A DNA stretch of 64,000 bases from Arthrobacter sp. 35W (GTDB taxonomy: Bacteria; Actinomycetota; Actinomycetes; Actinomycetales; Micrococcaceae), in assembly GCF_000482545.1 (NCBI RefSeq), contig NZ_KI519454.1, positions 2,330,954 to 2,394,953 of the forward strand, in the 5' to 3' direction. Made by a program: the position numbers and the translations under genes. Below, piece after piece: positions 41,967 to 56,676 of this stretch. Each line of letters starts with the position of its first letter. Position 1 is the stretch's first letter. The notes beneath the pieces are model-generated. The model saw only the letters and a program-made list of their open reading frames with translations, was not told the DNA's origin and ran no database searches.

Positions 41967-42464
41967 ATGACTGCACAAGTTGCTCACGACAGCCTCCTCC
42001 TCCAGGACGCCCTTTCCCACTTTCCTGCGGGTGTGGTGGCCCTCTCGGCGACGGTCAATGGTGAGCGGCAGGTTATGGTCGCCTCCTCATTCTCTGTCGG
42101 AGTCTCATATGAGCCGTCGCTGGTTTTGTTCTCCGTCCAGAAGTCTTCCTCCACCTGGCCCATGATCAAGGAAGCTCCCCTGATTGGCGTGTCGGTCATG
42201 GGTGAGGACCACAATCCCGTCTGCCGCCAGCTCGCGTCGCGTGACAAGGCAAAGCGTTTCAACGGCGTGGAGACTGTTTCCGGCGAGCGAGATGACCTCT
42301 ACATCTCCGGGTCTCCCCTGTGGCTTACTTGCTCGATTTTCCAGGAAGTCGATGCCGGCGACCACATTCTCATTCTGCTGCAGATTGAAGATTTCGAGGC
42401 ACACAGTTCGCACATGCCCCTGGTCCTCCACCGTTCGTCCATGAGCCGTTTGGACTACCTTTAG
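41967..42464 (+). CDS. Flavin reductase domain protein (FMN reductase component)
   Basis: This 165-residue protein of the HpaC/flavin reductase-like family starts LLLQDALSHFPAGVVALSATVNGERQVMVASSFSVGVSYEPSLVLFSV, the typical FMN-binding beta barrel. An FNGVE(T)V turn and the terminal PLVLHRSSMSRL strand follow. Such proteins reduce FMN with NAD(P)H and hand FMNH2 to a two-component monooxygenase. The DmoA/NtaA-type monooxygenase in the same island (50912-52315) is the likely partner, and the size is close to the small subunits of such systems. Confidence 0.88.
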   Translation: MTAQVAHDSLLLQDALSHFPAGVVALSATVNGERQVMVASSFSVGVSYEPSLVLFSVQKSSSTWPMIKEAPLIGVSVMGEDHNPVCRQLASRDKAKRFNGVETVSGERDDLYISGSPLWLTCSIFQEVDAGDHILILLQIEDFEAHSSHMPLVLHRSSMSRLDYL

Positions 42465-42500
42465 CGTCGACGAGCAAGAACGATGAGAGGTACTACGACC

Positions 42501-42647
42501 ATGCACAACTCTCGCTTCCTCAAGTCCTCCATGGATGATCATGGGTTAAAGTTGGACGAAACCACAGTCACCCTCATGGCAGGTTTTTCGAAAAGCGCGG
42601 CCCATCCTTCGAACGTCCGGCCGCTGTCGTCAAAGCCTCGAATGTGA
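42501..42647 (+). CDS. Possible small protein (48 aa)
   Basis: This short ORF (MHNSRFLKSSMDDHGLKLDE...) is preceded by GAGAGG about 10 nt upstream. Its stop overlaps the ATG of the next gene as ATGTGATG, as if coupled to it. No family is recognised. It may instead be the displaced N-terminus of the following gene or a leader peptide. Confidence 0.3.
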   Translation: MHNSRFLKSSMDDHGLKLDETTVTLMAGFSKSAAHPSNVRPLSSKPRM

Positions 42648-43339
42648 TGACCGCCCAAGCCATAGCGTCTGGCCAGGTCCGACGCGCAAAGCCTGCCGGC
42701 CAGCCGGCGACGGGAGCCGGTCACTCGAATACGAGCGTGAGGCAACTGGACATTCTGCTCACGTGGAGGGGCCGGGTCGGGCTCTTCAAGAAGTCCGGGC
42801 GTAGTTCATCTGGAAGCATGCCGTGGCAGCTTCTTTCAGTGGCCCAGGAGGGCAGCTATTCCGCCTTGGATGATGGACTGCTGCAATGCATACAACTGCT
42901 CCATCAAGGGACCGGCCTGACCGTTCGTGACATCCTCACGATTCAACCCGGCCCCACCGTCGAGTTGCCCTATGGTTCGCAATCCACTGTGCACTCCGTC
43001 TATGTGGTCGAAACCAACCACCGGCGGTTGGCGCTTGGACCCGGGTACTCGATGCATAGGTGGGCCAAGGGACCGAAGATCGGACGATTCGACGGTGGCG
43101 TTGACTGGCTCGTTCCGATATTGGAGGCCGTCGCTTCAAGTCCGTCGACGCCGCTACAGACAGTACAAGCCGTTGAGACACCTGAGAGAGGGATTCCGAT
43201 GACCATGCGTGGCGTTTTGATAGATAATCTGAAACCCAATTCACAGACATCGAAAGCAGCCGTTTCGGTGGCTGCAAGAGTGTTTGGTGAGCCGCCGGAG
43301 ACGGTCCGAGCCCTGGCCAACGTCAGCGGGCAATTGTGA
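42647..43339 (+). CDS. Degenerate NUDIX-like domain protein
   Basis: This is a protein of about 230 residues. The central part (about 35-165: VRQLDILLTWRGRVGLFKKS ... PWQLLSVAQEGSYSALDDGLLQCIQLLHQGTGL ... VHSVYVVETNHRRLALGPGYSMHRWA) follows the strand/helix order of NUDIX folds. The catalytic box GX5EX7REUXEEXGU is missing, so hydrolase activity is unlikely. A ligand-sensing or regulatory role is possible. GTG at 42644 is an alternative start. Its stop overlaps the MFS start (GTGA). Composition is less GC-rich than flanking chromosome, consistent with transfer. Confidence 0.5.
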   Translation: MTAQAIASGQVRRAKPAGQPATGAGHSNTSVRQLDILLTWRGRVGLFKKSGRSSSGSMPWQLLSVAQEGSYSALDDGLLQCIQLLHQGTGLTVRDILTIQPGPTVELPYGSQSTVHSVYVVETNHRRLALGPGYSMHRWAKGPKIGRFDGGVDWLVPILEAVASSPSTPLQTVQAVETPERGIPMTMRGVLIDNLKPNSQTSKAAVSVAARVFGEPPETVRALANVSGQL

Positions 43340-54849: not shown

Positions 54850-55383
54850 TTGGATCCGCGCTGGCTGGCGATGAGCCGGCGGCCGCCTAGATCCTCCCTC
54901 TGAATGGACACTCCAGGTTCATGGCCAGCACCCTGCCGGTGGCTATCCCTCCCCGCAGTTCACTACCTAGCGAGAAAGATCGGTCGATATGACACGAAAA
55001 GAAGCTTGCGCAGGATGTCCCCCGGGATTCGTACGTGGAATCGTAGGGCGGCCAATGGCTCTTAGCCCCGTTCCCGCCCGTCCGGCAGCCTGACTTTTTC
55101 ACATGTCCGCCTGATAACTGTCGGGTGGTCCGTCATCGACCGCTTAGCCGACGAACCGCGACCTCGAGCTAGTGCGTGAGCCCACTTGGCCAGCCGGCCA
55201 GGGTATCGCCCACTCCGGTGCTGCGGATCGCGTTCACCTGCTTCCAACCTCGTCGAGATGGTAGGGGCGCGGTCAGAAATGAAGTTGCTCCTGCCTTTTG
55301 ATCCGGCGCGCACGTATGGATGAAAGCCATTGGCCATCGCCCGATCGAAGCAGGGTCAGTAATCCAAGCGAAAGGGACAAATC
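54850..55383. other. Intergenic region containing the hxlBA promoter
   Basis: About 530 bp lie between direct-repeat copy B and hxlB. No supported gene is present. The hxlB promoter must lie here, but no clear operator or -10/-35 pair could be picked with confidence. Confidence 0.4.
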
Positions 55384-55983
55384 GTGAATCCGACAGCAAA
55401 TACGACCGAACGGGTCTACAGCACCACAGATGACATTGTCCGCAACCTGTCCCTCGTCAGGGATGAGATCGCGGACACGGCTGCCAAGATCGACGAACAC
55501 GAGATCGCCACACTGGCAGGCCTCCTGGGCCCGAACAGCCGGGTGTTCGTCGCCGGAGCGGGCCGCAGCGGTCTGGTCCTGCGCATGGCCGCTATGCGGC
55601 TGATGCACCTGGGCCTGACCGTCCACATCGCCGGTGACACCACCACTCCGGCCATCAGCTCCGGGGACCTGCTGCTGGTGGCCTCCGGATCGGGAACGAC
55701 CTCCGGAGTGGTCAAGTCGGCGGAAACAGCTATGAAGGCCGGTGCACGCATTGCCGCGTTCACCACCAACGCTGACTCGCCGCTGGCCCGGCTCGCCGAC
55801 GCACTGGTGATCATCCCCGCCGCACAGAAGACCGACCACGGCTCCAATGTGTCCCGCCAGTACTCCGGGTCCCTCTTTGAGCAGGTGCTGTTCCTGGCCA
55901 CCGAGGCCATCTTCCAGTCTTTGTGGGACAACACCGATGTAGCGGCCGAGGAGCTCTGGCTCCGGCACGCCAACCTCGAATAA
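55384..55983 (+). CDS. hxlB: 6-phospho-3-hexuloisomerase
   Basis: This 199-residue SIS-domain enzyme converts hexulose-6-phosphate to fructose-6-phosphate in the ribulose monophosphate pathway. The core RVFVAGAGRSGLVLRMAAMRLMHLGLTVHIAGDTTTPAISSGDLLLVASGSGTT is diagnostic of PHI. GSLFEQVLFLATEAIF near the C-terminus is also typical. It starts at a GTG preceded by AAAGGGA. Together with hxlA 69 bp downstream it gives a complete formaldehyde-fixing pair. Confidence 0.95.
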   Translation: MNPTANTTERVYSTTDDIVRNLSLVRDEIADTAAKIDEHEIATLAGLLGPNSRVFVAGAGRSGLVLRMAAMRLMHLGLTVHIAGDTTTPAISSGDLLLVASGSGTTSGVVKSAETAMKAGARIAAFTTNADSPLARLADALVIIPAAQKTDHGSNVSRQYSGSLFEQVLFLATEAIFQSLWDNTDVAAEELWLRHANLE

Positions 55984-56052
55984 CCGGGGCCACACCTTTC
56001 CATACCCGCATTTTCCAACCCACTGCAGTTCCCTATAGAAAGAAGAATCATC

Positions 56053-56676
56053 ATGAAGCTCCAAGTTGCTATCGACCTGCTCACCACCGAAGCCGCCCTC
56101 GAACTGGCCGGCCAGGTTGCCGAATACGTCGACATCATCGAACTGGGCACCCCGCTGATCAAGAGCGAAGGGCTGTCAGTCATTACCGCCATCAAGGCCG
56201 CCCACCCCGACAAGATTGTCTTTGCTGACCTGAAGACCATGGATGCCGGAGAGCTCGAAGCCGACATCGCCTTCAAGGCCGGCGCCGACCTGGTCACCGT
56301 GCTCGGTGCCGCCGACGATTCCACCATTGCCGGTGCCGTCAAGGCAGCCAAGGCCCACAACAAGGGCGTCGTCGTCGACCTCATCGGTGTGGAAGACAAG
56401 GTCACCCGTGCCAAGGAAGTCCGCGCCCTGGGTGCGAAGTTCGTCGAGATGCACGCCGGTCTGGACGAGCAGGCCAAGCCCGGCTTCGACCTGACCGGGC
56501 TGCTCCGTGCCGGTGCAGAGGCCCGCGTTCCGTTCTCCGTCGCCGGTGGCGTGAGCATCAAGACCATTGCCGCCGTCCAGCACGCCGGTGCCGATGTAGC
56601 TGTCGCCGGCGGCGCCATCTACGGTGCAGAGGACCCGGCCCTGGCAGCCAAGCTGCTCCGCGGCGCCATCGTCTAG
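56053..56676 (+). CDS. hxlA: 3-hexulose-6-phosphate synthase
   Basis: This 207-residue TIM-barrel aldolase condenses formaldehyde with ribulose-5-phosphate. The OMP-decarboxylase-superfamily residues are visible in KLQVAIDLLTTEAALELAGQV, VFADLKTMDAGELEADIAFKAGAD (the DxKxxD motif), VDLIGVEDKVTRAKEVRALGAKFVEMHAGLDEQA and FSVAGGVSI. It follows hxlB in one unit, with GAAAGAAGAA before the ATG. It serves assimilation or detoxification of formaldehyde, presumably from the island's monooxygenase. Confidence 0.96.
   Translation: MKLQVAIDLLTTEAALELAGQVAEYVDIIELGTPLIKSEGLSVITAIKAAHPDKIVFADLKTMDAGELEADIAFKAGADLVTVLGAADDSTIAGAVKAAKAHNKGVVVDLIGVEDKVTRAKEVRALGAKFVEMHAGLDEQAKPGFDLTGLLRAGAEARVPFSVAGGVSIKTIAAVQHAGADVAVAGGAIYGAEDPALAAKLLRGAIV

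Follow-up and report, generated by a model that had tools for sequence, protein, structure and literature searches.

Does the region from 41967 to 56676 of a 64,000-nucleotide stretch of Arthrobacter sp. 35W DNA (the window) encode a single route from a methylated compound into central carbon metabolism? A sequence-only reading had proposed such a route from five linked genes, encoding a DmoA/NtaA-type monooxygenase, a flavin reductase, a riboflavin kinase and the HxlB and HxlA proteins of the ribulose monophosphate (RuMP) pathway, with pgi at the edge. We analysed the window within its genome (4,660,196 bases, 4 contigs) and scanned a collection of 84,980 species with peptide patterns, which gave 151 relatives, the best 80 of which were kept. 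The locus is confirmed and already known in part, and its elements fit together better than the sequence-only reading could show. We consider it probable that it is an acquired one-carbon island, in which DmoA-like demethylation is coupled to RuMP fixation under common control.

All open reading frames (ORFs) on which the proposal was built, as well as that of a large LuxR regulator, are open, and their families were confirmed. The 467-aa protein (50912-52315, minus strand) is an NtaA/DmoA-type monooxygenase dependent on reduced flavin mononucleotide (FMNH2). It scores 163 bits with PF00296 and 523.2 bits with TIGR03860 (NtaA/DmoA family), above the curated cut-off of 279.7. The flavin reductase of 165 aa (41967-42464, plus strand; PF01613, 95 bits) may have a DmoB-like role. 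The riboflavin kinase (46499-47032, minus strand; PF01687, 107 bits) is a stand-alone enzyme for which a flavin adenine dinucleotide (FAD) synthetase match was absent in the family scan. The regulator (47225-50521, minus strand) is of the LuxR/AAA (LAL) type, with PF13191 (AAA_16), PF00196 (GerE) and TPR matches. Both members of the RuMP fixation pair exceed their equivalog-domain cut-offs, namely hxlB, encoding 6-phospho-3-hexuloisomerase (55384-55983, plus strand; TIGR03127, 232.9 bits, cut-off 160), and hxlA, encoding 3-hexulose-6-phosphate synthase (56053-56676, plus strand; TIGR03128, 254.8 bits, cut-off 200). At the island edge stands, as proposed, one of the two genome copies of pgi, encoding glucose-6-phosphate isomerase (39810-41444, minus strand, start codon at 41444; PF00342, 26.9 bits, cut-off 22).

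The same cassette is found in four other genomes, with monooxygenase identities of 82-84% (among the best 80 of the 151 relatives): Arthrobacter sp. MA-N2 (locus L003), Pseudarthrobacter sulfonivorans ALL (L004, on a 4.7-kb contig), A. terricola JH1-1 (L005) and A. hankyongi I2-34 (L006). The monooxygenase, the LAL regulator, the flavin reductase, a conserved protein of 231 aa (p231) and an MFS transporter are conserved across the five genomes. The regulator is present in every cassette, with orthologues of 76-90% identity in all four others (the ALL copy ends at the contig edge). The flavin reductase (81-88% in L003, L005, L006 and L105), p231, the MFS transporter and the riboflavin kinase (66-77% in L003, L005 and L006) are found in all three with sufficient flank. 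In MA-N2, A. terricola and A. hankyongi the flavin reductase belongs to the same locus as the monooxygenase; in ALL, the flavin reductase, p231 and MFS genes lie beside hxlA on a contig other than that of the monooxygenase. Among 23 genomes of its own genus, the regulator was found in 35W only. Within the fetched flanks of the best 80 relatives, riboflavin kinase matches were limited to MA-N2, A. terricola and A. hankyongi, and hxlA/hxlB matches to MA-N2.

The association of the monooxygenase and its regulator with hxlA extends beyond 35W as well. All five cassette genomes carry hxlA, three of them beside cassette genes. In a sample of 395 family genomes the monooxygenase (E up to 1e-200) occurs in three and hxlA (E up to 1e-60) in 110, and all three monooxygenase genomes possess hxlA (hypergeometric 0.021, uncorrected for kinship). 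The order maoC - hxlB - hxlA - transporter is shared by the window and MA-N2, and ALL shows maoC - hxlA - transporter - flavin reductase - p231 - MFS - pgi. In A. hankyongi, hxlA lies about 21 kb from the monooxygenase on the same contig, and the island there encodes most enzymes of the RuMP cycle, with zwf, opcA, gnd, gap, pfk, fba, tal, tkt, pyk and a pgi split over two frames. An oxidation gene, the putative source of formaldehyde, is thus clustered with RuMP genes in the window, in MA-N2 and in A. hankyongi. The MA-N2 cassette further contains pgi and hxlB fragments (L003, 5376-6533) with hxlB/hxlA matches on either side, a region which is rearranged or poorly assembled.

Might hxlBA nevertheless be a chance neighbour, which arrived by recent duplication beside an unrelated island? 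A second hxlBA copy, on contig C2, matches that of the window at 99.5% identity over 1350 bp, and 44586-45078, in the region of the p94 gene and a truncated zwf, shows 96% DNA identity over 493 bp with p94-zwf of the same contig. However, the order maoC-palindrome-hxlBA-transporter is also present in MA-N2 and, without hxlB, in ALL, and the palindromes described below are common to both halves of the island; we regard chance neighbourhood as very unlikely. Since this maoC-adjacent place is common to the window, MA-N2 and ALL, it appears older than the duplication signal, and we infer that the near-identity would reflect recent gene conversion rather than recent arrival. The C2 copy is accompanied by a haem-dependent N-demethylase-like gene and by ORFs resembling zwf and, as judged by eye, opcA and gnd. 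This second hxlB-hxlA-p94-zwf-opcA-gnd-like cluster (L108, C2:1266001-1286000; at 195-2272 and 9250-15154), whose haem-dependent oxidative N-demethylase-like gene matches PF11927 and which also neighbours genes for a DmmA-like protein and an amino-acid permease, is devoid of the palindrome and looks like a methylated-amine counterpart.

Both halves of the island share a DNA element. A 178-nt repeat (84% identity) is common to the gap between pgi and the flavin reductase gene and to the gap between maoC and hxlB, and its copies in other cassettes align on the core ATCCGTG-N5-CACGGAT. In the window this palindrome, a putative operator, occurs three times, each time with one mismatch: at 41692-41714, between pgi (248 bp away) and the flavin reductase gene (253 bp); at 52755-52777 (minus strand), 78 bp from the start of the ABM-like gene that heads the monooxygenase operon; and at 54764-54786, between maoC (179 bp) and hxlB, the latter at the long distance of 598 bp. 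Allowing up to two mismatches, the three window sites compare with 0.37 expected, and three were reached in 1 of 100 shuffles. As the pattern GAAATCCGTRAYNNYYACGGATR was derived from the intergenic repeats, finding it in them proves nothing; the promoter of the monooxygenase played no part in the derivation, yet carries a version of it. Upstream of the monooxygenase operon the bare palindrome is found in all five genomes, with one mismatch in the window and two in the other four. With up to two mismatches, GAAATCCGTRAYNNYYACGGATR has 18 sites in the five genomes (none for the reversed-pattern control), 15 of which lie on cassette islands (G000 2, G023 3, G024 2, G025 4, G026 4); of the other three, two are inside long ORFs and one, unassigned, is on ALL contig C16. 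Among the 395 family genomes, sites with up to one mismatch occur in five, these being the three monooxygenase genomes and two with a single intra-ORF site.

Across the five genomes the palindrome is also located near the starts of the flavin reductase gene, pgi, maoC/hxlB or zwf. In A. hankyongi its sites precede p94-zwf-opcA-gnd, a trehalase-like gene, a LuxR gene and the flavin reductase gene. It was not found in four hxlAB loci without the monooxygenase (L104, L106, L107, L108). The shared palindromes are the strongest evidence for joint control and suggest that the monooxygenase half and the RuMP half form one regulon. The LAL regulator is one candidate for binding them; a 459-aa LuxR protein, encoded in all five genomes and, in 35W, at a distance of about 11 kb from hxlAB on C2, is another and is not separable from it on this distribution. 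Transposon ends and an RNA leader were considered for the intergenic repeats and dropped, the palindrome being the best-conserved part across genomes.

The palindrome also bears on the proposal that the enzyme frees organosulfur sulfur for assimilation, with hxlAB just detoxifying the formaldehyde. Relatives of the monooxygenase do adjoin sulfur-acquisition genes (SfnB-type beside H1, ssuD beside H2), and passages of PMC5023230 report Hps/Hpi in non-methylotrophs too. Against this, pgi and zwf-opcA-gnd share the palindrome or the island, which goes beyond the needs of detoxification, and scanned cassette proteins gave no Ssu/Sfn match save weak family-wide monooxygenase matches. Sulfur scavenging is accordingly improbable in our view, and we return to the coupling of demethylation to RuMP fixation.

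What kind of monooxygenase would feed it? Among solved chains, the window enzyme scores highest with DmoA (6ak1, 561 bits), followed by LadA (468), HcbA1 (358), riboflavin lyase (317) and DszA (268); identities are 55% to DmoA, 53% to LadA and 39% to riboflavin lyase. Of the 20 DmoA binding residues, taken from a list in PMC9259527, the window enzyme retains 17, LadA 13, HcbA1 10, DszA 10 and the riboflavin lyase RcaE 7. A 97-row tree was built by a quick method with support from the Shimodaira-Hasegawa-like approximate likelihood ratio test; it carries a long-branch warning, chiefly for riboflavin lyase and DszA. There, the window enzyme and L003-L006 form their own clade (support 99), and the sister group (99) consists of nine rows from Panacagrimonas, Paracidovorax, Pseudomonas, Methylobacterium and Rhodococcus. 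The clade of the window enzyme excludes LadA, HcbA1, riboflavin lyase and DszA, in keeping with the sequence-only reading, and DmoA itself falls elsewhere. The enzyme is therefore best described, from sequence comparison, as DmoA-like and not as an orthologue within the DmoA clade. LadA, HcbA1, DszA and EmoA/NtaA functions were rejected as closest match by scores and tree (EmoA and NtaA, outside the tree, by score alone). In ALL, whose genome holds eight matches, the cassette enzyme is 53% identical to DmoA and two other compared paralogues 49% and 47%. A DmoA-like paralogue of A. hankyongi outside the cassette (L158, from about 4120; G026:C5:12122-13504) contains one in-frame TAA.

Directly upstream of the monooxygenase gene lies the ABM-like gene (98 aa; 52381-52677, minus strand), which is present in four of the five cassettes. 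An ABM98 homologue directly follows the monooxygenase in all nine sister-clade rows, and a single reading frame spans both in all eight sister loci with ORFs listed (L007-L012, L014, L049). As homologues adjoin or fuse in the sister clade, this arrangement supports a functional link between the ABM-like protein and the monooxygenase.

Riboflavin kinase and flavin reductase genes alongside that of a TIM-barrel monooxygenase, RcaE, also characterise the riboflavin-catabolic Rca cluster. The window contains the same trio, and the island could in principle be an Rca-like cluster converting riboflavin to lumichrome, placed by chance beside hxlAB. Yet the enzyme is only 39% identical to riboflavin lyase, lies outside its clade and shares 7 of 20 binding residues with it, on which grounds RcaE orthology was rejected; moreover, the palindrome ties the monooxygenase to sugar-phosphate genes. 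We find this explanation scarcely credible.

For the demethylation island we propose the following scheme. The flavin reductase would hand FMNH2 to the 467-aa monooxygenase, and the stand-alone riboflavin kinase would top up FMN. The monooxygenase would oxidatively demethylate a small substrate, probably a methylated sulfur compound, with dimethyl sulfide (DMS) as best guess, freeing formaldehyde, which HxlA and HxlB would fix into fructose-6-phosphate. Pgi and Zwf (from an intact copy elsewhere in the genome) would cycle part of it through the dissimilatory RuMP/pentose-phosphate route to NADPH and ribulose-5-phosphate. Both halves would be switched together, probably by the large LuxR regulator acting at the palindromes. 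That the monooxygenase performs some formaldehyde-yielding oxidation is very likely. DMS or a close methyl sulfide as its substrate has, in our judgement, close to an even chance; it is favoured because of the closeness to DmoA and the occurrence of the cassette in ALL, a type strain tied to Borodina et al. 2002, whose title refers to dimethylsulfone metabolism. Since the enzyme, at 55% identity to DmoA, forms its own clade, the substrate (DMS or a relative) is presumptive. The earlier claim that the genes jointly oxidise a methylated compound and assimilate or detoxify its carbon is partly supported, in that the recurrence in five genomes, the tie to hxlA and the palindrome link a DmoA-type oxidase with RuMP genes.

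Several observations weigh against this scheme or its substrate. DmoA clusters apart with L044 and L141 (support 100), leaving the window enzyme outside the DmoA clade, and most rows of the uncharacterised family retain 16-19 of the 20 DmoA residues, so that 17 of 20 does not single out DMS. The non-cassette paralogue L158 is 54% identical to DmoA, compared with 52% for the A. hankyongi cassette enzyme, and is nearer to DmoA in the tree (85). No C1 or sulfur cluster was seen by eye in the sister-clade loci L008, L009, L010, L011, L012 and L049. According to passages of PMC9259527, DmoA itself and its soluble homologues (DmoA2 and DmoA3, about 51% to DmoA) gave no methanethiol, and according to passages of PMC13352529 none of nine A. 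baylyi group C enzymes detectably oxidised DMS. SBP56 methanethiol oxidase is found in none of the five cassette genomes, which ruled it out as the next pathway step. Strain 35W is known as a methylamine isolate (PMC5023230, in part), and no report of its growth on DMS was met in the literature examined. As to the cassette, A. terricola has no hxlAB between maoC and the transporter, its hxlA copies lying on other contigs, and its locus gave no match for the ABM-like gene. The window zwf is truncated, and MaoC, p231 and the MFS transporter are without a role in the proposed scheme.

These points leave room for another methylated or alkylated substrate, such as a relative of dimethyl sulfone or methanesulfinate, an N-methyl amine, a short alkane or an ether, with formaldehyde still passing to RuMP. 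The clade separate from DmoA and the near-equal identity to LadA fit such a substrate, as do a cassette transporter, needless for volatile DMS, and the isolation of MA-N2, like 35W, on methylamine (same source). On the other side, DmoA is the top-scoring solved relative, LadA lies outside the clade, and the accessible text of PMC5023230 assigns the 35W genes for methylamine and trimethylamine to other places (Mao 3577/3611, Tmo 3598). On balance we hold a substrate of this kind to be rather unlikely.

Returning to the preferred methyl-sulfide reading, we inspected individual loci of DmoA relatives for flavin supply; this comparison was not a survey. In L141, a Paracoccus plasmid locus, the DmoA-clade gene (76% to DmoA) has an NAD(P)H-dependent oxidoreductase gene on one side and ssuD, then ribB, on the other. 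In L044, from a Beijerinckiaceae metagenome-assembled genome (85% to DmoA), RibBA, a second GTP-cyclohydrolase-II protein, MaoC and a related MFS are encoded, together with a reductase-like gene named by eye. The ABM-fused monooxygenase of L007 (Panacagrimonas perspica; 3425-18951) is accompanied by RibA, Mo-type sulfite-oxidase-like, cytochrome c, SQR-like and metallo-beta-lactamase genes, the first four within 10 kb of it. Judged by their families, these neighbours hint at a sulfur substrate; no flavin-supply or sulfur genes of this kind were noticed by eye in L008-L012 and L049. A linked FMN-supply gene, which the sequence-only reading had taken for a peculiarity of this layout, is hence not unique to it, given RibB in L141, RibBA and GTP cyclohydrolase II in L044 and RibA in L007. 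In the window no FMN riboswitch was detected, with zero Rfam matches at gathering score in 30000-64000.

How did the island come about? Its G+C content is 58.1% in 41825-55365, compared with 67.9% and 67.6% in the flanks; the values for pgi (0.681) and hxlAB (0.645-0.652) are nearer to the host. Because of the low G+C content, an ISL3-type transposase fragment reduced to its zinc ribbon (45299-45904, minus strand; PF14690) and the truncated zwf, the island looks horizontally acquired and reworked. The truncated zwf, a glucose-6-phosphate dehydrogenase N-terminus, shares 44620-45204 (plus strand; PF00479, partial) with the p94 gene. The MFS transporter (43336-44571, plus strand; PF07690) may have been replaced, since it is merely 37-38% identical to the MFS at the same position in L003, L005, L006 and L105; its identity to that of the DmoA locus L044 is 41%. 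A 46-nt inverted repeat (89%) connects 39710-39755, downstream of pgi, with 44930-44975, at the start of the zwf fragment.

The transposase fragment, the truncated zwf, the ABM-like and MFS genes and the palindromes were absent from the sequence-only reading, as were two further genes. A MaoC-like hydratase (54148-54585, minus strand; PF01575) has one orthologue per genome in all five cassette genomes, and a GPR1/FUN34/YaaH-family transporter (56743-57459, plus strand; PF01184) is the same cassette neighbour in L003, L005 and L105. The p231 gene (42644-43339, plus strand) was aligned from five cassettes; its product has no Pfam or NCBIfam match, and the predicted structure was unusable (mean predicted local distance difference test score 45.6). 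MaoC and MFS genes are also paired in haloarchaeal, Sulfitobacter and Rhizobium plasmid loci (L150, L151, L152) with thiolase and CoA-ligase-type genes, where identities to the window proteins are 51-68% for MaoC and 40-41% for MFS. Finally, 53178-53766 is a remnant with 68% DNA identity to the edge region of L006, beside the GH15/trehalase-like gene of the A. hankyongi cassette.

According to passages of PMC9259527, Arthrobacter has been observed to degrade DMS (Borodina et al. 2002), with no comprehensive gene study reported. The cassette, present in type strain ALL and four other genomes, is a concrete candidate for the Arthrobacter DMS gene, and the defined palindrome makes co-regulation testable. 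We tentatively propose, at somewhat short of an even chance, that it supplies the genes so far lacking for dimethylsulfide/dimethylsulfone methylotrophy in Arthrobacter. The enzymes would then be a new subclade of DmoA that works with an ABM-like partner and has a dedicated source of FMN, and an operator-defined regulon would switch demethylation and RuMP fixation as one transferable module. If so, Gram-positive methylotrophy islands would reach beyond methylated amines to a substrate that is probably a methyl-sulfur compound, and flavin supply would seem to travel with DmoA-type enzymes. Panacagrimonas perspica is a good organism in which to seek the substrate.

Among known systems, the Gram-positive C1 islands of Arthrobacter strains 31Y, 35W and MA-N2 (PMC5023230, seen in part) resemble the window in that oxidation genes are clustered with Hps, Hpi, Zwf, OpcA and Gnd and in their near-identical duplicates. 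For 35W, Table 2 of that paper gives Pgi 2121, Hpi 2136 and Hps 2137, and as second set Hpi 3587, Hps 3588, Zwf 3590, OpcA 3591 and Gnd 3592; these two sets fit the two loci found here, and the hxlAB and pgi copies of 35W are already published there. In contrast to the window, the primary oxidation genes named in the text serve methylated amines (Tmo, Mao, Tmd). In the text searched, figures apart, luciferase, sulfide and riboflavin have zero occurrences, and the monooxygenase half is not discussed. The RuMP island is thus published, and for the oxidative half, the shared palindrome and the recurrence no description was found in the open-access literature searched. Methylophaga thiooxydans (PMC6548844) resembles our proposal in that it draws C1 units from DMS and has hxlA/hxlB and the RuMP cycle. 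However, DMS monooxygenase activity was undetected there, the first enzyme is unknown, and the passages mention no such cassette.

LadA (3b9n; 53% identity) and HcbA1 (6lr1) belong to the same superfamily as the window enzyme but differ from it in clade and, with 13 and 10 of 20, in binding residues. The RcaE cluster of Microbacterium maritypicum (5w48; PMC12746152, in part) differs likewise in the clade and low identity of its lyase, and no ribokinase was found among the scanned cassette ORFs. The closest comparison is DmoA/DmoB of Hyphomicrobium sulfonivorans, which shares with the window the identity and binding residues given above and a separate flavin reductase. The DmoA-clade genes of L044 and L141 further resemble the window in lying near riboflavin-synthesis genes, with RibB/RibA at DmoA-type loci in place of the riboflavin kinase of the window. 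The window differs from DmoA/DmoB in its separate clade, its ABM-like partner and its large LuxR regulator, and it has genes of the RuMP pathway, in contrast to the serine cycle used by H. sulfonivorans (passages of PMC13352529).

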